Origin: Candidatus Zhuqueibacterota bacterium
GTDB taxonomy: Bacteria; Zhuqueibacterota; Zhuqueibacteria; Oceanimicrobiales; Oceanimicrobiaceae
NCBI GenBank assembly: GCA_029262055.1
Contig: JAJDAD010000063.1
Span: forward strand, 124,001-188,000
Direction: 5' to 3'
Length of the DNA: 64,000 nt
Shown: positions 52,136 through 63,034 of the stretch, one piece after another
Numbering within the stretch: the first letter of the stretch is position 1
Layout of the letters: each line of letters begins with the position of its first letter
Program-made: the position numbers and the translations under genes
The notes under the pieces: model-generated
What the model saw: the letters and a program-made list of their open reading frames with translations, nothing else
What the model was told of the DNA's origin: nothing
The model's database searches: none

Positions 52136-53347
52136 TCAATGGCTACCATGCGGTCTGTCGATGCCCGCCACCTGCTGCATTACCTCAGGATATTTTAACC
52201 CGGAGCCGGTATTGAACAGCACGACCCTGTCCTGCTTGTCCACTTGGTTACGCTCGGCCAGGTGCTTCAAAGCAGCCCAGGTCGCAGCGCCTTCCGGGCA
52301 AACCACAAGCCCCTCGGCTTCGGCCAACTCGGCAACGGCTGCCATGATTTCATCGTCCGAAACTGAGATCGCCAAGCCCCCGCTCTCCTGTAACGCTTTC
52401 AGGATAAGCTTGTCCCCGAAGGCTTTCGGAACGCGCAGACCTGCCGCAACCGTATTGGCATTCTCGAAAAACTGAGAATCGGGTGCCCCGTTATCGAAAG
52501 CCCGCGTGATCGGGTCGCAGCCCGAGGATTGTACGGCAATCATTCTGGGCAGGGCGCCCGTGAGCCAGTTCATCTGCTTCAGTTCGGCAAAGGCCTTCCA
52601 CATCCCGATCAGGCCGGTGCCGCCACCGGTCGGATACAAAATGACATCGGGAAGGTCCCAATCGAGTTGCTCCGCCAGTTCAAGCCCCATGGTTTTCTTC
52701 CCTTCCAGACGGTAAGGCTCTTTTAAGGTGGACATGTCGAACCAACCGTGCTGCGCCTTACCGGCCGCGAGCTGTTTGCCACAGTCGCTGATAATCCCGT
52801 CGACAAGTGTTACGTCGGCTCCTGCGAGCTGAGTTTCAAGAAGATTGCTGCGCGGCACATCTTTCGGCATGAAAACGAAACAAGGCAAACCGGCCCGTGC
52901 CGAGTAAGCAGCCAGGGCGCCGCCTGCGTTACCCGCGGTCGGAACGGCAACACTCCGCACGCCCAATTCGCGTGCGCGCGAAACAGCCATTGCCATCCCC
53001 CGTGCCTTGAAACTGCCAGTTGGCAGCGGCGCTTCATCCTTGACCCAGACGTTCTGAAGGCCTGCCTGACCAGCGATGCTTCTGAGCGACAGAAGAGGCG
53101 TCATGACTTCTCCGAGGGTGACGATATTTTCCTCGCGTTGTAGCGGCAAAAGCTCGCGATAGCGCCACATACCGGCGGGCCGCTGCCGCCACATTTCCCT
53201 GGTTAGCAGATGGCCAGCCTGGTCGAGATCGTAGCAAGCGACAAGCGGTTGATTGCAGGCAGCGCAAAACGTTTGCAGTTCGGAATGAGCAAACTTCTTA
53301 CCACATTGACTGCACTCGAGATGGGTTAACAGAGATTGGGGGGACAT
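52136..53347 (-). CDS. thrC: threonine synthase
   Basis: 403 residues from the ATG at 53347 (a GTG lies two codons earlier). It converts phosphohomoserine to threonine with PLP. An N-terminal zinc ribbon (CSQCGKKF, CAACNQPL) is followed by the PLP Lys in PTGSFKARGMA and by the phosphate-binding PTGGGTGL. PTAGNAGGALAAYSA is typical of the archaeal/FCB-like short type. It stands alone, with the third copy of the dispersed repeat upstream. Confidence 0.88.
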   Translation of the reverse strand: MSPQSLLTHLECSQCGKKFAHSELQTFCAACNQPLVACYDLDQAGHLLTREMWRQRPAGMWRYRELLPLQREENIVTLGEVMTPLLSLRSIAGQAGLQNVWVKDEAPLPTGSFKARGMAMAVSRARELGVRSVAVPTAGNAGGALAAYSARAGLPCFVFMPKDVPRSNLLETQLAGADVTLVDGIISDCGKQLAAGKAQHGWFDMSTLKEPYRLEGKKTMGLELAEQLDWDLPDVILYPTGGGTGLIGMWKAFAELKQMNWLTGALPRMIAVQSSGCDPITRAFDNGAPDSQFFENANTVAAGLRVPKAFGDKLILKALQESGGLAISVSDDEIMAAVAELAEAEGLVVCPEGAATWAALKHLAERNQVDKQDRVVLFNTGSGLKYPEVMQQVAGIDRPHGSH

Positions 53348-53425
53348 AAGCACCTGACCGGAATATTATTCCAATAGTTAGTTAATAGCTTGAACAAACT
53401 GGACGATTAATAAAGTCTCTTTCTG

Positions 53426-53562
53426 GACATCCTGGAAGGATCTCTGTTTGGCAAAACCAGTGCCGTTGGGCGCTGCCGGACCTGCGCCAAAAAGATTCCT
53501 CCTGAATGACTGTAGTTGCCCGATTTGAGCCGATACGCGGATTCATGAATCGCTCAGGCTAA
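53426..53562. repeat. dispersed palindromic repeat, copy 3
   Basis: About 137 bp aligned with 7914-8051. It starts GACATCCTGGAAGGATC, the matching arm AGATTCCTCCTGAATGAC ends at 53510, and it ends GGATTCATGAATCGCTCAGG. The middle differs most. Confidence 0.8.
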
Positions 53563-53632
53563 CATTTCTCACTTCGCAAATGACAAATAACCAAACGTTT
53601 TTTTCAACTCAACAACCTCCCCGGAGGGGACA

Positions 53633-53659
53633 GATTCAAACTCGTTAAGCGTTTGAATC
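53633..53659. other. perfect inverted repeat
   Basis: GATTCAAAC at 53633-53641 pairs with GTTTGAATC at 53651-53659, a 9-bp stem with a 9-nt loop. It lies in the gap downstream of the YhaM-like gene and may act in its 3' end; there is no T run. Confidence 0.35.
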
Positions 53660-53748
53660 AGGGGTGGGTATGTGGCACGGGGCAAGCACCGATGCAATAG
53701 TCCTCCGATAATTGGCTGGAAAGCAAATATGCAAATGGGGATCGTTTG

Positions 53749-54696
53749 TCATTCATTTTCGCCAAAATAAAAATACCGCTCCATCAGATTGACGTACGAA
53801 CTCCACCTGTGGCTACCTTCCCGCTTCTTTATCCTGAGGAATGCGTTTGCCTTGGAGTCGATTTCATCGGCGTAGTAGAGCAGCAACGCTTCCAGCGTCA
53901 TGGGAACCACGGGCGAGGCTTGCTCAAGCTTGCCCTGGTGGCTAAGAATCAGATGAATAAGCCGGCGCTGCAGCTCCTCAGGGAATTCCGGCATTAGTGC
54001 AATTTTCTCATTCACGAGTTGCGATCCCAGAACGATGTGGCCAAGCAGTCTGCCTTCGTCTGTAAAGTCTATCACGGTCTTGTAGGTGTAAGTGTAAATC
54101 TTACCAATGTCGTGCAGCAGGCCGCCAGCCACCACCAAATCGCGGTTGGCGTCCGGATAAATCGCAGCCAGCTCGCAGGCGATGTCGGTGACACACAGAG
54201 TGTGCTCCAGCAAACCGCCGATGTAGTTATGATGCCACAGTTTTCCACCGGGTGCGTGCGCAACTTGGTTTCGCAGGCGCTCATCGCCAAAGATAGACTG
54301 CAAGAGTATCTTGAGCGCTCCCTGCTCTACGCTCTCGATTGTTTCATCCAGCTTTCGGAGTAAGTCCTCAAGGTTCTGGTCGACTTTTGGGATAAGCTGT
54401 GCCCAATCGATATCATCGCGTCTACCGGCCTTGCGGATTTTTTGAATGCTAAGGTGCTTCTTGTTCTTGAAATCGATAACGTGCGCCTTCAGCTTGACAA
54501 CATCGCCAACCTCAAGTGAGTCGTAGACTTTCTTGGCTTCATTCCAGAAACTCCCGCTGATTCTGCCGGCGGCGTCTCCCAACTCCAGAGCGAGATAGAG
54601 CTCCTTGCTCTCCCTGCTCGTACGGATTTCTTTCTTTCTCAAAACAAAAAAGGAGATCACTTCATCTCCCGGCTGTAAATCTACGCTCAAAGACAT
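53749..54696 (-). CDS. YhaM-like 3'-5' exoribonuclease (OB fold + HD domain)
   Basis: 315 residues, the length of YhaM. An N-terminal OB fold (about 8-90, ISGSFWNEAKKVYDSLEVGD) is followed by an HD domain. Metal ligands are seen in WHHNYIGGLLEHT, GGLLHDIGK (the HD pair) and LILSHQGK. Such enzymes degrade single-stranded RNA or DNA from the 3' end in the cytoplasm. GGAGGGGA precedes the ATG. The penicillin-acylase-family gene ends 16 nt upstream on the same strand. Confidence 0.88.
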   Translation of the reverse strand: MSLSVDLQPGDEVISFFVLRKKEIRTSRESKELYLALELGDAAGRISGSFWNEAKKVYDSLEVGDVVKLKAHVIDFKNKKHLSIQKIRKAGRRDDIDWAQLIPKVDQNLEDLLRKLDETIESVEQGALKILLQSIFGDERLRNQVAHAPGGKLWHHNYIGGLLEHTLCVTDIACELAAIYPDANRDLVVAGGLLHDIGKIYTYTYKTVIDFTDEGRLLGHIVLGSQLVNEKIALMPEFPEELQRRLIHLILSHQGKLEQASPVVPMTLEALLLYYADEIDSKANAFLRIKKREGSHRWSSYVNLMERYFYFGENE

Positions 54697-54712
54697 CTTC
54701 CCCTCCCTTTGT

Positions 54713-57124
54713 TTATTTCTGTGGGACCAAAGTCAGGTGGTTTGCTGCAGTTTCAGCAAGCAATTCTCTGTTCGTGTGCACCGTGTGGTAATTGCCGGAC
54801 AACCAATCATCGGTCTGGTCGCTGTAGTGCTCGCTCATACGCTGCCCCGACTGCCCGGATGTGATGATGGACAGAGAGCGTTCCGGCTGCGACAGATCAA
54901 AAATTTGCCGGGTGGATGGCCCGACCACAACATCAAACGGATGTGCCAGACGGTACTCGGCGCTGTTGATTGTCCCGGTCGATCCACCGACTGAGTAGGG
55001 TCCCAGATTCAAAAGAAACGCGAGTGACTCGTGTCGTCCGAGCGGATGTTTCATGGTCAGTGTGTGGACTTTGCCCCAGCGCCAATCGCTGATATTATCA
55101 CCGACCAATTTCTGCAGAATGTTCCCGGCGTCCGTCAAGCTCCGCAAAACAATGTCTTCCTTACTCTCAACCGCAGCCGTGCTTATGTCATCGAACCAGA
55201 CCGAGTCGCTCCCGGACAGAAGCGTAACCATTACTCGAAACGGTACGTTTCCGGTCCGGATGTAGATATTGAAAAGCTCTTCGCCCATTTCATCTTTCAA
55301 AGTGTTTTCCGTGGCGGCCACGAAAAAGGCGTGAAAGATCGCCGGCGCCACCGATTCCGGTGACTCTGTGCCGTCCCACTCCCGCATTAGCTTGAACAGA
55401 CTCACCCAATCGCGCGAGGCCGGATCATCAAGCTTGTGTGCTGCCGTTTGATGAATAACCTGCATGATCTCCTGCGCCAGAGCCGATTGCACATTCAACT
55501 GCATCTCCTTGAAATCCTGAACGGAAAAACTTTCGCCGGCTCCGAGCAAGCGGTGAATTCGTTCAGCCCGGCTCGGCGGCTCCCACAGGTTTGAAATGTA
55601 GTAGGGATAATGGTCGTCGACGATTTTATTGTTGGCCGTGGCAAGGTAGCCATTCTTTGGATTAAGCGCGTTAGGCAGCCGGTCAAATGGAACTTCGCTC
55701 AGCCAGCGGCCCTGCCGCTTCCAGCCCGCATGAGGCAGGATCCCGGTAGCCTTGTGCCGTACAGGAACGCTGCCGGCAAGATGATAACCGATATCACCAG
55801 CGTCCGAGGCGAAAAGGAAATTCTGCGCCGGCACCTTAAAGTCTCGCAAAGCCGTCACAAAATCCTGCCAGTTTTGGGCCTGCATGATTCCGAGGTTGGC
55901 AGAGAGCTCATCGCTGGGAGTCTGGCCAACCCAACGCATGGAAACAACTCTGCCGCTGTCGCCGACAACTGGATGCAGGTCCGAAACCACCGGGCCATTG
56001 CCGGTCGACTTGACCTGAAGCAGAACGGTGGGGCCATCTTTAACTTCGATCTCTTCCTCGACTACCTTAAAATCCTGCCACTCACGTCCATCCCAGTAGC
56101 GGGCAAGGCTATCCGGCGAAATGCGCTCCAGATAAAAATCAACATCGTCCACCATGCCGTTGGTCAGCCCCCACGCAATGCGCTGATTGTGTCCGATGAC
56201 CACGCCGGGTACACCCGGAAGGGACACGCCGGCTGCGTCTATTTCACCTCCGGAGAGATGCATTTCGTACCACAGCGACGGGGTCATGAGCTCGAGATGC
56301 GGGTCATTGGCCAACAGAGGTTTCCCGCTGCTCGTCCTGTCCCCGGACACGACCCAGGAATTGCTGCCCAGGCGCCCACCCCGGCTACCTAGCAAATCCA
56401 ACATTCCCATTCCTGCCTGAACAAAGGTACTGATCGACGGCAGCAGACTGTCATCCTGCGAGAGAATAAAAGGGCCAGTCCCGGGAAAATCGGGAAAAAC
56501 CTCGGCGGCCTTCTTCGCGCCGAACTTTCTGACCAGCTCATGTAGCGTCAGGTCGACATACCAACTAAAGGAGAGCTTCCACGCCATGAAGCGGGTAAAA
56601 GCGATGCTGTCGCTGACCTGCCAAGGCTCAGGCTCATAGCCCAGGAGGGCAAACTCGATCGGCAGGGTTGAACCGTTTTGGGCAATGAAGGCATTGATGC
56701 CGTCAGCATACGCCTGCAGGACAGCACTGGATTGCGGCGACAGTTTGGCTTCAATGTCCCGGGCAATTCTGGCAAACCCGATCACGCGCGCAAATTTGTC
56801 CAACTCGACCGCCTTACTCCCCAATACTTCCGAGAGCTTGCCACAAGCCAGCCGCCGGAAAAAGTCCATTTGCCAGAGACGGTCCTGGGCGATTACGTAC
56901 CCGGCAGCACGAAACAAGTCTGCTTCACTCTCAGCAAAAATATGCGGTACGCCCACTGAGTCGCGATAGACATGGACCGGTTTGTCAACGGCGCTGAAGT
57001 GCAAAGCGCCGTCCATCGGCGTTAGTGACTCGGTCAGAAATCTGTAGAGGAAAACGAGTAGAATGAATGCCAGGAGAAGAAAAAAAACAACGCTGTTCGC
57101 GAGGACCCTCCACCCTCTGCTCAT
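54713..57124 (-). CDS. penicillin acylase family (S45) N-terminal nucleophile hydrolase
   Basis: 803 residues. One membrane helix (10-30) anchors it to or leads it through the inner membrane. The precursor self-cleaves at Gly253-Ser254 in LGSNSWVVSG, making Ser254 the N-terminal nucleophile of the beta chain. The alpha chain carries DSVGVPHIFAESEADLFRAAGY. GLTNGMVDDVDFYLER and TANNKIVDDHYPYY are further family segments. Family members split acyl groups from amides, including quorum-sensing lactones; the substrate here is unknown. Confidence 0.92.
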   Translation of the reverse strand: MSRGWRVLANSVVFFLLLAFILLVFLYRFLTESLTPMDGALHFSAVDKPVHVYRDSVGVPHIFAESEADLFRAAGYVIAQDRLWQMDFFRRLACGKLSEVLGSKAVELDKFARVIGFARIARDIEAKLSPQSSAVLQAYADGINAFIAQNGSTLPIEFALLGYEPEPWQVSDSIAFTRFMAWKLSFSWYVDLTLHELVRKFGAKKAAEVFPDFPGTGPFILSQDDSLLPSISTFVQAGMGMLDLLGSRGGRLGSNSWVVSGDRTSSGKPLLANDPHLELMTPSLWYEMHLSGGEIDAAGVSLPGVPGVVIGHNQRIAWGLTNGMVDDVDFYLERISPDSLARYWDGREWQDFKVVEEEIEVKDGPTVLLQVKSTGNGPVVSDLHPVVGDSGRVVSMRWVGQTPSDELSANLGIMQAQNWQDFVTALRDFKVPAQNFLFASDAGDIGYHLAGSVPVRHKATGILPHAGWKRQGRWLSEVPFDRLPNALNPKNGYLATANNKIVDDHYPYYISNLWEPPSRAERIHRLLGAGESFSVQDFKEMQLNVQSALAQEIMQVIHQTAAHKLDDPASRDWVSLFKLMREWDGTESPESVAPAIFHAFFVAATENTLKDEMGEELFNIYIRTGNVPFRVMVTLLSGSDSVWFDDISTAAVESKEDIVLRSLTDAGNILQKLVGDNISDWRWGKVHTLTMKHPLGRHESLAFLLNLGPYSVGGSTGTINSAEYRLAHPFDVVVGPSTRQIFDLSQPERSLSIITSGQSGQRMSEHYSDQTDDWLSGNYHTVHTNRELLAETAANHLTLVPQK

Positions 57125-57139
57125 AGAAGTGCGCTGCGC

Positions 57140-57886
57140 TTAGAAGTACTCAAAATATCCGATCTTGAACTCACGAGCGACATGGTTGGAACCGTTTTCG
57201 AACAAATTCTTCAGGTTAACTTGCAGGAACAGACGATCAGAGAAGCCCCATTGCACGCCCGCATTGAAATAACCGGTGCCGGAACCAAACTGAAGGTCGT
57301 TCTCGTTATCATTGATGCCAAAATCATATTCAGCAAAAGCCCGGACCTCCCGGTTTAGGCTGAAATCGGCTCCTAAGAAGAAATTAAGTTCGTTGTCATC
57401 GTCGTCATCCTCGAGGCTTACATTCAATCCGGCATGCAATCCCAGGTTGAACAGAATAGCGTAGTTCTTGCTGGCCACTGCAAAAATGCCACGTGACTTG
57501 GTTTCGTAACGGTTCAGGGCATTGTCATATTTGCCGTAGCCCTGTGAGTCGAAACCCAAGGTTACGGCCGGCAGGACAAAGGTCTCGTCAAGCACCCGCA
57601 GCCGCGCCTGAATTCCGGGATCCGGGTTCCAGTCGATATCGCCCTCGCCAATGATGTTTTCACCGCCGTAGGATATACCGAACATAAAACGCGGAGAAAG
57701 CCCGACACTGACCCGCCCGAGCAAACCGCCGTTTGCAAACATGCGGAGATCGATAGCGTAACTGCCCCGGTCCAGTGTCCCGGCTGTTGGCAAATCGATG
57801 AGCTGCCGTTGCTCGACGTACTGTTGCGCAAATGCAAATCCCGGCAAAGTCATTGCCAGGCATAAGACCACAATTCGTATTTTCAT
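57140..57886 (-). CDS. outer-membrane beta-barrel protein
   Basis: 248 residues from the ATG at 57886; the frame opens at a TTG at 57928, and the only GGAGG lies 27 nt before the ATG, so the start is not certain. The signal peptide ends FAFAQ. The mature part is a run of amphipathic strands with Asp-rich turns (SLEDDDDDNELNFFLGA) and a C-terminal Phe (KIGYFEYF). It somewhat resembles YjbH-type barrels. Function unknown. Confidence 0.75.
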   Translation of the reverse strand: MKIRIVVLCLAMTLPGFAFAQQYVEQRQLIDLPTAGTLDRGSYAIDLRMFANGGLLGRVSVGLSPRFMFGISYGGENIIGEGDIDWNPDPGIQARLRVLDETFVLPAVTLGFDSQGYGKYDNALNRYETKSRGIFAVASKNYAILFNLGLHAGLNVSLEDDDDDNELNFFLGADFSLNREVRAFAEYDFGINDNENDLQFGSGTGYFNAGVQWGFSDRLFLQVNLKNLFENGSNHVAREFKIGYFEYF

Positions 57887-57928
57887 GAAATTGTCTAGCA
57901 GGTTAATGTTAGTCCTCCCTGAACCCAA

Positions 57929-58387
57929 TTACTTAATCTCGGCGCCTGCCTCCCAATCAAAGCCGATTTCCGCGTCGTCGTGAGCGATCCGGCCCTCTTC
58001 ATCGGGATTGTAGGTCTTGGAAGTGATGTATAAAAGATGTGCGACCGAGCCCAACACGCGGCAGCCATGAGCGACGCCCGGAGGAATTCTCAGGACCTTT
58101 CCGCCGTAATTCTCACCTAGAAACACAGTTTGTGTTTTCCCTTTGCTCGCTGAATCGGGTCGCTTGTCGTGCATCCCCACTTTGATATTCCCGACGGGGA
58201 CGTACCACCAATCGACCTGCGTCTTGTGAATGTGCCACGCCTTGGCAACGCCCGGATACATCAGTGAATGGCTAAACTGTCCAAAGCCTTCGGCAAAAAA
58301 ATCGTCGGTTACTCTGATAATCTCCCTAAAAAAACCACGCTCGTCCGGATAAGTATTCAACTCCTTGAGAACAACTCCTTCAATCAT
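57929..58387 (-). CDS. RmlC-like cupin (dTDP-4-dehydrorhamnose 3,5-epimerase family)
   Basis: 152 residues, shorter than typical RmlC (about 180). LNTYPDERGFFREI at residues 10-23 and AWHIHKTQVDWWYVPVGNIKVG carry the cupin strands and the conserved His. PPGVAHGCRVLG is the lid segment. The catalytic His/Asp of true epimerases cannot be confirmed. No other dTDP-sugar genes are next to it, so it could act on another nucleotide sugar. Confidence 0.8.
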   Translation of the reverse strand: MIEGVVLKELNTYPDERGFFREIIRVTDDFFAEGFGQFSHSLMYPGVAKAWHIHKTQVDWWYVPVGNIKVGMHDKRPDSASKGKTQTVFLGENYGGKVLRIPPGVAHGCRVLGSVAHLLYITSKTYNPDEEGRIAHDDAEIGFDWEAGAEIK

Positions 58388-58480
58388 TAAACGCTCCTTG
58401 TTTACCGGGGGTGAAGTCTGGCTAAAAAACTGCCTAATATAACCAATCGCTCTTTTTGTGTCAACTCATTTGCCGGTACT

Positions 58481-58515
58481 AAAACACAGAAAGGAAGGTC
58501 ATGCACCTTCCTTTC
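58481..58515 (-). terminator. intrinsic terminator of the metallophosphatase gene
   Basis: A perfect 11-bp stem, GAAAGGAAGGT / ACCTTCCTTTC, with a 5-nt loop, followed on the minus strand by TGTGTTTTAG. It lies 27 nt after the stop at 58543. Confidence 0.8.
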
Positions 58516-58542
58516 ATGTATTCAAACAACTGTTCAACATTC

Positions 58543-59481
58543 TTAGTGAGTACCCGACTTGTCTCCGGCGCTCACTGCATCAAACTCTTTAACCAGTCCC
58601 GCAAGCGTGATGTCGTCAGCTATCTTGCGATTCAGGGAGACCGCCTTGCCCGAGACCACATTCACATCACCCCTGGCTACTTCAAAATCTATTTGGCCCA
58701 GGTATTTGCCCTTTGAACCCGGCTGCATGACGCACGTAGACCCGATCATGGATGGCTCGCGCGATAGGTTCCACCCGTGACCACTGACGACAAAGTCCAG
58801 ACCAGGTAACTCCTGCGCAAAGCTTTTCGATTTTTCAAATCCCAGATGCGACAAAGCGATGACGACGTCACACTTGTCCGCCAGCTCAGCTACCACGCTT
58901 TGGGCGGCGGTGATGGGGTCGCGAATTTCGAGCCCTTGCTTTTCCCCCACCATGCGCGGATTAGTCGGCTTGGACACAACACCGAAGATACCGACCCTGG
59001 TACCATCGACTTCTTTGATCACATACGGATCCGCAAAGAGCTCCTCGCTGCCATACTTATAAACATTGGCCGAAACAAAAGGCAATTGATGGTCATTGCG
59101 CATTTCGGTTAGAAACTCACTGCCATACTGCAAGTCCTTTTCACCGAGGTTGATGGCATCATAGTGCAGGGCCGCCATGCCACGCAGCAAAAAGGTAACT
59201 TTGGTCTTTTGCGCCTCTGAAACCGTGGTGCCAAAATCACCGCAATCCACCAACAGTTGTGCGGTTCCTGCTTTGCTTGTGCTGCTTATATAGCTGGCTC
59301 GCCGAGCCAGTCCGCCAATCGGGTTAGCCTTTCAGCCACACGGTTTCAGGTAACCGTAAACATCACTCGTAAAAAAAAGCTGCACGGCAGTTTTCGCCTG
59401 AGCGAGAATCAAGCCCGGGCTCAGAAGAAAAATAGCCATCAAGGCATAGCTGCCAATCTTTCTCTGGTAAGAGTGCGACAT
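58543..59481 (-). CDS. UshA-like metallophosphatase, probable selenoprotein (in-frame UGA at codon 50)
   Basis: 312 residues if UGA at 59334-59332 is read as Sec50. The ATG at 59481 follows GAGG; the signal peptide ends LILAQ (28). Metallophosphatase segments on both sides of the UGA are in one frame: FFTSDVYGYLKPCG, then Sec, then KANPIGGLARRASYI, LVDCGDFG, NLGEKDLQYG, IALSHLGF and VVSGHGW. Relatives have PCGC with Cys at the UGA position. The 26 codons between the UGA and the next possible start (59253) are open and conserved in pattern. A hairpin fitting a bacterial SECIS begins 22 nt after the UGA. UGA is an ordinary stop elsewhere here. A nonsense mutation is the alternative. Confidence 0.8.
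59294..59310 (-). promoter_or_regulatory. bacterial SECIS-like hairpin
   Basis: CTGGCTC, loop GGC, GAGCCAG: a perfect 7-bp stem whose loop begins 28 nt after the UGA and whose first two loop bases are G. These features match the general bacterial SECIS rules (loop 16-37 nt from UGA, G in the first two loop positions). The hairpin lies within the codons for LARRAS. Confidence 0.65.
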
Positions 59482-59658
59482 CGGATTAACCTCACGTTTT
59501 AAATATCGTAATGCCTGCTGTTGCAAGTCATGGCCGCGTTACGGCTTAAGCATTCTGCAAAATAATATTTATTGGGCTATAAAACAATCACAAATTGCCG
59601 AAAGAAAACGCTACCTGTGAAAAAACCATCCTCTGAGCGCGTAAATCCTGCCCCCCGC

Positions 59659-60708
59659 TCACTTGGCGGCCACCACTCTCAATATCTCCGAGTAACTCTG
59701 CAAGGCGTCTCTTACTGCCAACCCCCCGCTTTCGCCGAATACGTCCACGAGCTTCCGGTAGTCGCGCATGGTGATGTCCTCCCCCATCGCCCGGTGTAAT
59801 TGGTGCAGCAGATCGTGAAAGTCCATATCCGCGTCCGGATTAAAATCAAGCCCGAGTTTGTCCTGCAGGTCCTGTGGGTTATAAAGATAGACACGGCCTA
59901 TGGCTTTCTCGGCGGTCCGGTGCAGGAAGGCCAGTTCCTCTTTGTGTTCGCGCCAGGCCGGGTCTTCTCTGATCAGAGCACCGATGTGTCCTGCTGCCGG
60001 GCCGACATTGTCCGAGGCCTTGGCTTGCTCATCCAGGTAGGCCAGGTATTGCACGGCCACGCCAGCATCCAGGAGCGATGCTGCGATTTCGTGCAGCTCC
60101 CCTGGCTCTGCTTTTGCCGGAGCTGCTTGTGCAGCGGCCCGGGGTGGCACAACCGGTACCGGCCCAGTAACGGTCTTCGCTTGCCGCGACTTTTCGACGG
60201 CAGCTCGCCTTGCTGCCATTTTTTCCCGCCTGGCCTGTGCTGCCATCTGTTCCTGCTCAAGCATCGCCATAAAGAACTTGAACTCGTTTTCGGACATTTC
60301 AGATATCGGCTTATTCTTCAATTGCTCAAGCTGTTCCTCCAGGCTTATGTCGGTTTTTGCACTTGCCTTACCACGCTTCTTCCCGGTCTCCCTGGCTTCC
60401 TGCGACGCCAGTGAACTGTCCTTACGAAAGGCTTCGTACTCGGCAAGAGACAGAACTGTGCCGTCCCGTAACTTGACGCCCTGCACCTTCTCCCGTGGCA
60501 GAACTTCACCGTACTCATAAGCCTGCTTCCAATGGCTGGCGTTGAATACGATTTTAGTATCTGTGATATCGAGCACCTCAGCCTTGATGCGTGTGCCATC
60601 ATTGAGCACAATACTGACGGACTCTTCCTGCTTGATGGTGGTCCTGGTGGTTGCACAACTGCTGAGTAAAAAACAAAAAACAGCGAGAACAAACGGTAGT
60701 CTACTCAT
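59659..60708 (-). CDS. lipoprotein of unknown function
   Basis: 349 residues. The signal ends in LLSSC, a lipobox. A small strand-rich N-terminal domain (about 28-90: IVLNDGTRIKAEVLDITDTK, then VLPREKVQGVKLRDGTVLSL) looks like an SH3/Sm-like barrel. A long charged, Ala-rich coiled-coil region (95-200) and a helical C-terminal half follow. No family recognised. It lies 37 nt after the GWxTD/TPR gene and is probably in its operon. Confidence 0.65.
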   Translation of the reverse strand: MSRLPFVLAVFCFLLSSCATTRTTIKQEESVSIVLNDGTRIKAEVLDITDTKIVFNASHWKQAYEYGEVLPREKVQGVKLRDGTVLSLAEYEAFRKDSSLASQEARETGKKRGKASAKTDISLEEQLEQLKNKPISEMSENEFKFFMAMLEQEQMAAQARREKMAARRAAVEKSRQAKTVTGPVPVVPPRAAAQAAPAKAEPGELHEIAASLLDAGVAVQYLAYLDEQAKASDNVGPAAGHIGALIREDPAWREHKEELAFLHRTAEKAIGRVYLYNPQDLQDKLGLDFNPDADMDFHDLLHQLHRAMGEDITMRDYRKLVDVFGESGGLAVRDALQSYSEILRVVAAK

Positions 60709-60745
60709 GGTTTCACTCTCTCCCTGGCAGAACCGGCGGTCCCAC

Positions 60746-63034
60746 CTATTTAGTAACTAAATGCAAATCGACGGACTTCTCAATACTTCTCGCCTCGACC
60801 AAATCGTTCACGGTAACACGCAGTTGGTAGAGCCCTGCTTCCAGGCCACTGACATCGAAACTGACATATTCGATCATGTCTCTCGATGTTCCGCTGCGCT
60901 CATCCCGCAAAGACACACTCTTCTTTTTTCCGCCGAATCCGAATAGTTTCCCCAGACCTCTTCTCTTCTTCTTAAGTTGAACCAGTTCGTGGATGGTTTC
61001 CACCGATGTCTCACCTTCCGCATCCCGACTCAGGTTATAAATCTCGTAGTAAACATGGATGGCTTGATTCAGTGTAAATTCCGCGGCCGGGTTTGGCACA
61101 ACTTCCAAATCGCCGCGGCGAAACGGACCAGCCGCCCCAGCCGGGTTGATTGCTGATGCCAAAACCAAATCGCTGGCGGCCAGAGTGGACCGGTCAAATG
61201 ACGGCACAGAGACTTCGAAGTTCTCCCCGCCGAGGCGCCGGTATTCCTTTTGTCGAACAAAAAAGGAAAGGTTGTAAAGTTCCGGCTCCAGTTCAAAGCT
61301 GTGAGCCAGGATAAACTGGTCCCCGAAAACGTGTGCTGACCGCGGAGGATCTAGTTCTTCCCGCTTGAATATCCTTCCGACTTCCTCGAAGCCCGTGCTT
61401 AGGACGGCGCTACCGAATTCGATTGAGTCGGATTGTGCGGAAGCCAACGGAGCGAGCGGTGTGGAAAAAAACACCTCCAGCCGGGTCCGGCCACCCTCGC
61501 CGCGAAAATTCGCAACGTGATAGGGAACCGTCAACGCCTCCGTTTTCTTGTCCCAGGTGTGGTAATCGCTCTGCATCGCAATCTCGACCATCTCGCTGCT
61601 GGCCTCGGCCATCCGCAACAGGTTGCTGCTTAACTCGCCGGTCGACTTTGCCAGGTAAACATTTGAAATCGAGTGATCCCACCCCAGGCGATCCGATAGC
61701 ATTTCACGGTTTTCGATGGAGGGTGTCAGGCGCCAGTTGTTTCCGGTCGCGAACCGCGCGATCATAAAATGAAAAATGAGCTTGGGCCGGTCTTCCCTTT
61801 GATGGTAAAGCCAGGATTCGTTGGTTGCCACAAACTCGCCTGCGGTCCGCGCCAAATCATCGGGCTCACCGTGCCGAATGAAAATCAGCCCCTTGTCGTT
61901 GAATTCCTGGTTCAACGCGTAGAACCGGGGGAAACGCAGATATTGTACCCGGTCCGGATTGTTCACCCGTGACCGCACGCCGTCAAACCAATAATCTTTC
62001 TCCGCCTTTATCAGGCGCCGATAGTGTTCGACAAGCCTAAAACTACTTTCTGCCGCTGGGACGAGCTCTCGTCTGCGCCAGAACGCCCGGATAAAGTCTC
62101 CCTTTGCAGCAAGCCCAGCGCTGTCGAAGGTATCCAGTTCAGAATCCTTGAACAAATATTTGGCGTCATTGAAAAAAAACAAGGCATCGGCGGGCGTGCG
62201 AATGGCGGCAACGGCGGTCCAGTAAAACTCGCTGGCGGCCGGCTCTTTTCCCTGCTGTACCAGAAGTCTCACCAGTGCAAGATAGGCCGGGATCTTTACA
62301 GAATTCTTTCCACCCGCCAAAAGCGTACCAAAGATGTCTTCGGCCTCGGCCAACTTGCCTTGACGCCTGAGGTTTTCTCCCTCAAGATAGCGCACCCAAT
62401 CTTCGCCGACATTTGCAAAAAGTGTGCTCTTTTCAGCCCGGGAGGCGTGCACCAGATAAAGTCGATAGAGATTATATATATCTACCTGGGCCTGCGCCAA
62501 GTCTGGGCGTTTACGAAGTTGGCGATGACCCCAGTCCAGGGCCTGGCGCCAGTGATCGCGTCTGCGTTCCAGGAAGGCCCGCTGCATCAACACATCCGAA
62601 TAACTGGAATCGATGGCCATGACGAGGTCAAACTGCCATTCGGCTTTCCCGAAGTCCTTGCTGCGCAGAAGCAAGCTCTTGAATTTTCCTGTCTCTCGAA
62701 ATGCGATGCCGAGATTGAGGTTTGCTTCAAGATCTTCCGGACTATCCTGTAGAATCCTCCGATTCCATTTCTTCACGTCTCCCCAGTCAAAGGTAGCTTT
62801 TGCTACCCTGGACAAGGCCCGTAAGGCTGGCAGCGAGTGCGCGTCGTGCCGCAAAACTTCCTCAAAATTTTTCTTCGCCTGTTTGAAATCATGAGAAATA
62901 AGGAGGCTATCCCCCGAAGCCAGCAGCCTTTGTGCACTGTCATCGGCGAAAGGGTAAACCGGAACGAACGTTGGTGCCGCGCAGAAAAAAGAGAACAGAA
63001 AGAGAAGAGAAAGTAGTCGCTGCATAATCAACAA
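60746..63034 (-). CDS. TPR and GWxTD-domain protein, secreted
   Basis: 762 residues. A signal peptide (to about residue 20) leads to TPR-like repeats (about 30-290, e.g. ALRALSRVAKATFDWGDVKK). The central VQYLRFPRFYALNQEFNDKG and LIFIRHGEPDD match GWxTD-domain proteins, a family common in FCB and Acidobacteria-type lineages. The C-terminal 250 residues are strand-rich. The role of the family is not established. It follows the FadL-like gene by about 100 nt with a terminator between. Confidence 0.8.
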   Translation of the reverse strand: MLIMQRLLSLLFLFSFFCAAPTFVPVYPFADDSAQRLLASGDSLLISHDFKQAKKNFEEVLRHDAHSLPALRALSRVAKATFDWGDVKKWNRRILQDSPEDLEANLNLGIAFRETGKFKSLLLRSKDFGKAEWQFDLVMAIDSSYSDVLMQRAFLERRRDHWRQALDWGHRQLRKRPDLAQAQVDIYNLYRLYLVHASRAEKSTLFANVGEDWVRYLEGENLRRQGKLAEAEDIFGTLLAGGKNSVKIPAYLALVRLLVQQGKEPAASEFYWTAVAAIRTPADALFFFNDAKYLFKDSELDTFDSAGLAAKGDFIRAFWRRRELVPAAESSFRLVEHYRRLIKAEKDYWFDGVRSRVNNPDRVQYLRFPRFYALNQEFNDKGLIFIRHGEPDDLARTAGEFVATNESWLYHQREDRPKLIFHFMIARFATGNNWRLTPSIENREMLSDRLGWDHSISNVYLAKSTGELSSNLLRMAEASSEMVEIAMQSDYHTWDKKTEALTVPYHVANFRGEGGRTRLEVFFSTPLAPLASAQSDSIEFGSAVLSTGFEEVGRIFKREELDPPRSAHVFGDQFILAHSFELEPELYNLSFFVRQKEYRRLGGENFEVSVPSFDRSTLAASDLVLASAINPAGAAGPFRRGDLEVVPNPAAEFTLNQAIHVYYEIYNLSRDAEGETSVETIHELVQLKKKRRGLGKLFGFGGKKKSVSLRDERSGTSRDMIEYVSFDVSGLEAGLYQLRVTVNDLVEARSIEKSVDLHLVTK

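Follow-up and report, generated by a model that had tools for sequence, protein, structure and literature searches.

A short-form UshA-like protein with a predicted selenocysteine in a conserved Cys-Gly-Sec motif

The window, i.e., the whole 64,000-nucleotide stretch of DNA analyzed here, carries on its minus strand a gene (58543..59481) that almost certainly encodes a selenoprotein, as judged from sequence comparison. The product is likely to be secreted, to have a UshA-type fold without phosphatase function, and to use Cys48 and Sec50 as a redox pair. On the basis of profile matches, it is a haem-less variant of an already catalogued selenoprotein family. The new part is modest and consists of the haem-less short form, which scores under the family cut-offs. 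The earlier note on this DNA had proposed a selenoprotein and had set down beforehand three observations that would speak against it, namely a genome lacking selB, selC, and selD, homologues with a residue other than Cys or Sec at the site, and TGC or TGT in place of TGA. None of the three came true, and the selenoprotein reading is supported.

The full-length gene has 312 codons including the UGA taken as Sec, starts with ATG at 59481, and ends with a TAA stop. Open-reading-frame analysis of the joined frame (59481-58543) finds a sole interruption, the TGA at 59332..59334 on the minus strand. Frames 59481-59335 and 59253-58543 have the same phase, with this one UGA and 26 open codons between them, which confirms the initial description of the locus. 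The predicted selenocysteine is residue 50 in the motif P47-C48-G49-U50, and both its position and the surrounding pattern YLKPCG-U-KANPIGGLARR are as first noted. A ribosome-binding site, GAGGT (59489..59493, minus strand), is seen in the sequence 7 nt before the ATG. Residues 1–29 (MSHSYQRKIG...LILAQA; 59395..59481, minus strand) were judged by eye to be a probable signal peptide, and the AlphaFold2 model has an N-terminal helix spanning residues 5–20.

The class survey comprised 63 genomes, and 41 homologues entered the alignment. The codon of residue 50 is TGA in 40 of the 41, these 40 lying in 39 genomes, and TGC only in the homologue L030. Homologues occur in all eight genomes belonging to the same family, with TGA in seven and TGC in one. 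L079, a homologue from another part of the phylum, has PCG-TGA as well. Cys48, Gly49, residue 50 (UGA or Cys), the GG, and the RR are invariant in the 41-row alignment; hence, residue 50 shows the Cys/Sec exchange looked for and nothing else. The genome of L030 (G003) is 96% complete. It has no selA and no SelB over the cut-off, and a tRNA-Leu is its top hit in the tRNA-Sec search. This amounts to a natural experiment: in the one genome where selA, selB, and tRNA-Sec went undetected, residue 50 is Cys and the downstream hairpin is missing. A contig search with an alignment of the part after the UGA brought up metagenome-assembled genomes (MAGs) named 'candidate division KSB1' and 'Caldithrix sp.' as relatives. 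A contig search with exact pieces of the single divergent window protein, one of them with U written as Cys codons, gave no match, and a plasmid search gave UshA, SoxB, and nucleotidase relatives only, among the best-scoring matches listed.

A putative bacterial SECIS apical stem-loop of 7 bp with the loop GGC is located at 59294..59310 on the minus strand, 21 nt after the UGA. Its start on the 22nd nucleotide and its stem had been described correctly. Since the protein sequence fixes part of the stem, the hairpin of a single gene is weak evidence; a fully paired 7-bp stem arises by chance in 5.8% of random codings of LARRAS with local codon use. Thermodynamic folding of the 50-nt region is insignificant (z = −1.0) and was therefore left out of the evidence. 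We also scanned the window for other joined TGA frames followed by a hairpin with a G-initial loop, and found, besides the selenoprotein gene, one chance match antisense to the penicillin amidase gene at 55592. It is the comparison among homologues that lifts the hairpin above chance. The hairpin is kept in all 40 TGA homologues and is absent from the TGC homologue. Across the 40 genes it starts 18 or 21 nt after the UGA, has at least four and up to seven consecutive pairs beside the loop, and has GGA, GGC, or, once, GTC as the loop. The wobble-wobble pair Ala-3/Arg-3 is T-A in 31 genes, C-G in eight, and T-G in one, with zero mismatches, whereas codon use would give 39% pairing. The real alignment has a covariation score of 0.275 versus 0.174 ± 0.018 for shuffled data, and none of 500 shuffles, which keep relatedness in, reaches it. 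None of the slid registers comes near the observed score. A SECIS-like stem-loop with G in the loop, confined to Sec forms, is one of the general marks of a bacterial selenoprotein and is what this family displays.

The genome holding the window (G000; 5.74 Mb, 97% complete) has candidate division KSB1 MAGs as relatives. A check for selA, selB, selC, and selD had been proposed, and selA (548.7 bits), selB (335 bits), selD (363 bits), and tRNA-Sec (67 bits; ARAGORN anticodon TCA, i.e., tRNA-Sec(UCA)) were all found, with selD adjoining selB on contig 3. SelD of this genome appears to be a selenoprotein too, having an in-frame TGA in ACAG-U-ASKL (L016, contig C3, about 90805-91731). A 2022 paper on KSB1 reported selABD and did not report selC (PMC9012183). 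In our covariance-model search, 43 of the 63 class genomes, including G000, have a tRNA-Sec of at least 62 bits. In all 39 genomes that carry the TGA form, one or more of selB, tRNA-Sec, and selA were found. The awkward case is G012, a 100%-complete MAG that keeps the TGA gene (L040), the hairpin, and selA; neither selB nor tRNA-Sec was detected in it, and its best tRNA-Sec match is a tRNA-Ser. It reflects either an assembly gap or a Sec system in the course of being lost, and we count it against the favored reading.

If the TGA were instead a true stop, the locus would be a pseudogene, or it would encode a 49-residue N-terminal peptide and a separately started downstream protein. Standard gene calling indeed yields a 236-aa ORF with a TTG start at 59253. 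A protein started there would be without its signal peptide, first strand, and invariant GG-L-A-RR, and the Cys homologue L030 is one continuous ORF. The stop recurs at the identical codon in 40 homologues with both flanks conserved, by which the pseudogene reading is rejected, and we regard a true stop as very improbable. The TGA is one base away from TGC and TGT, so that a sequencing error, or recoding to Trp or another amino acid, could be imagined as well. The identical TGA across 39 genomes speaks against both, and sequencing error is excluded because 40 homologous genes share the TGA at this site. UGA is an ordinary stop in the window, where TGA closes 11 of the 31 open frames that are ≥250 aa long. 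The substitution seen in the homologues is Cys, in a genome without Sec genes, and never Trp, and G000 possesses a tRNA-Sec; Trp recoding was rejected accordingly. Recoding or error is the least credible of the alternatives, even more so than a true stop. Insertion of selenocysteine thus stands as the preferred reading of the TGA.

The name that the earlier note had given, UshA-like (seleno)protein, is real. It belongs to NF041198 (UshA_like_PCGU), the best NCBIfam match of the window protein (E 2e-54, profile positions 14-269 of 519), which has the family's PCGU/PCGC motif at the same place in the N-terminal metallophosphatase-like domain and the same fold. The score of 184.9 bits does not reach the curated cut-off of 275, because the haem domain is absent. 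The last ~125 positions of NF041198 (about 394-519) match a cytochrome c554-like multihaem domain; the window protein lacks this C-terminal domain and has no CxxCH motif. Within the class, six of 41 members bear a haem domain of the cytochrome c554 type with four CxxCH motifs each, and the same number pass the cut-off. In single scans, four haem-bearing members all passed, and the window protein and two other short members failed. The window protein and 34 relatives are without the multihaem domain and under the cut-off. On the family tree, three or more gains or losses are required to explain where this domain occurs. One genome (G046) has haem-fused and short TGA copies together (L032 and L053), and the two forms may have separate roles in view of this co-occurrence.

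The second family model, NF049981 (UshA_like_Sel_2, 'UshA-like (seleno)protein family 2'), resembles the window protein in describing a short, one-domain UshA-like selenoprotein, but its motif is CxxU rather than CxU. It matches with E 6e-21 and 75.1 bits against a cut-off of 140, out of reach for all class members (best E 5.3e-22, 78.5 bits). A 2008 study of Global Ocean Sampling data (PMC2398784) had already counted UshA-like CxU selenoproteins (COG0737), and a 2026 review lists both UshA-like families, one with CxU and one with CxxU (PMC13188914). The SoxB thiosulfohydrolase (TIGR04486) is of the same superfamily and matches residues 54-299 with 107.7 bits, far under its cut-off of 550. SoxB is not known to contain Sec.

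The AlphaFold2 model of the joined protein, built from the 41-row alignment, has a pLDDT of 92. Its best Foldseek match is E. coli UshA (1oid), with a TM-score of 0.79 by query length. Hence, the protein shares the catalytic N-domain fold (calcineurin-like; 58585..59400, minus strand, by motif mapping and Foldseek) with 5'-nucleotidases such as E. coli UshA and human CD73. Unlike these enzymes, it has no C-terminal substrate domain, has lost most metal ligands, and has gained Cys-Gly-Sec. Specifically, the DxH motif reads D40-V-Y42, GNHE reads G113-E-K-D, and GHxH reads G-H235-G-W237. Only one of the 41 family members has the DxH His, and none has the GNHE Asn or His; the bridging Asp of GD is kept in 17 (24 have Gly instead) and the His of the fourth motif in 19. 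PF00149 scores 12.2 bits against a gathering score of 21.5, and the metal-ligand set of an active enzyme is incomplete. The initial term 'metallophosphatase' therefore describes only the fold, as the greater part of the metal site has been lost.

A selenoprotein could still be an active metal-dependent phosphoesterase, in which the Cys-Sec pair acts as a regulatory switch or supplies replacement metal ligands. The UshA fold and the retention of Asp40, Asp82, His212, and His235 are in keeping with such an enzyme, and Glu114 could stand in for the Asn ligand. Yet 40 of 41 members lack the DxH His, all lack the GNHE Asn and His, and Gly occupies the place of the bridging Asp in more than half. 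The true 5'-nucleotidase paralogues of the class, one of them in G000, keep DxH, DxGD, GNH(E/D), and GHxH wherever the motif search was readable. We consider an active phosphoesterase unlikely, although with better prospects than the two alternatives concerning the TGA. As most of the two-metal phosphoesterase center is lost, the window protein is probably not a phosphatase; residual metal binding is possible, because the four residues named above are kept.

We favor the reading that the protein is a secreted selenoprotein on a former hydrolase scaffold. SelB with Sec-tRNA(Sec) would insert selenocysteine at the UGA (59334-59332) under the direction of the downstream GG-loop hairpin. The product would be exported, and its nucleotidase N-domain scaffold has probably lost hydrolase activity. 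From its place in the sequence, Cys48-Gly49-Sec50 is predicted to sit next to the former metal site, on the loop that follows the first strand and precedes the invariant GG-x-(A/S)-RR turn. Cys48 and Sec50 probably work as a redox pair, which would cycle between thiol/selenol and selenenylsulfide on an extracytoplasmic substrate. The cytochrome c554-type CxxCH motifs of six relatives support a role in redox or electron transfer. In the fused relatives, the haem domain would donate or accept the electrons; in the short form, they would go to a separate partner.

No conserved redox gene was found next to the short forms, and outside the own family, the neighboring genes offered no hint of function. 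In same-family genomes (window 52136-63034 and L071-L076), there is a conserved tendency of gene order with parts missing or inserted in some genomes. The order runs from a GWxTD/TPR protein, a 350-aa lipoprotein, the selenoprotein gene, and a dTDP-sugar epimerase-like gene to a ~260-aa probable outer-membrane protein, a penicillin amidase, and an OB/HD-domain protein.

Automatic annotation depends on family models such as NF041198 for translating UGA. Short-form genes score under its cut-off, and are therefore likely to be mis-annotated as truncated or split genes, with loss of the signal peptide and the active-site loop. We tentatively propose, from the sequence comparisons, that the haem-less branch, which contains Sec almost uniformly in one KSB1-related class, may have put a dead 5'-nucleotidase scaffold to use as a secreted Cys-Sec oxidoreductase. 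Such a protein would act on a substrate of its own and stand apart from the haem-fused NF041198 proteins, and it escapes the present annotation cut-offs. The loss of most metal ligands together with an invariant Cys-Gly-Sec makes this family a testable case for a hydrolase fold converted to redox chemistry.
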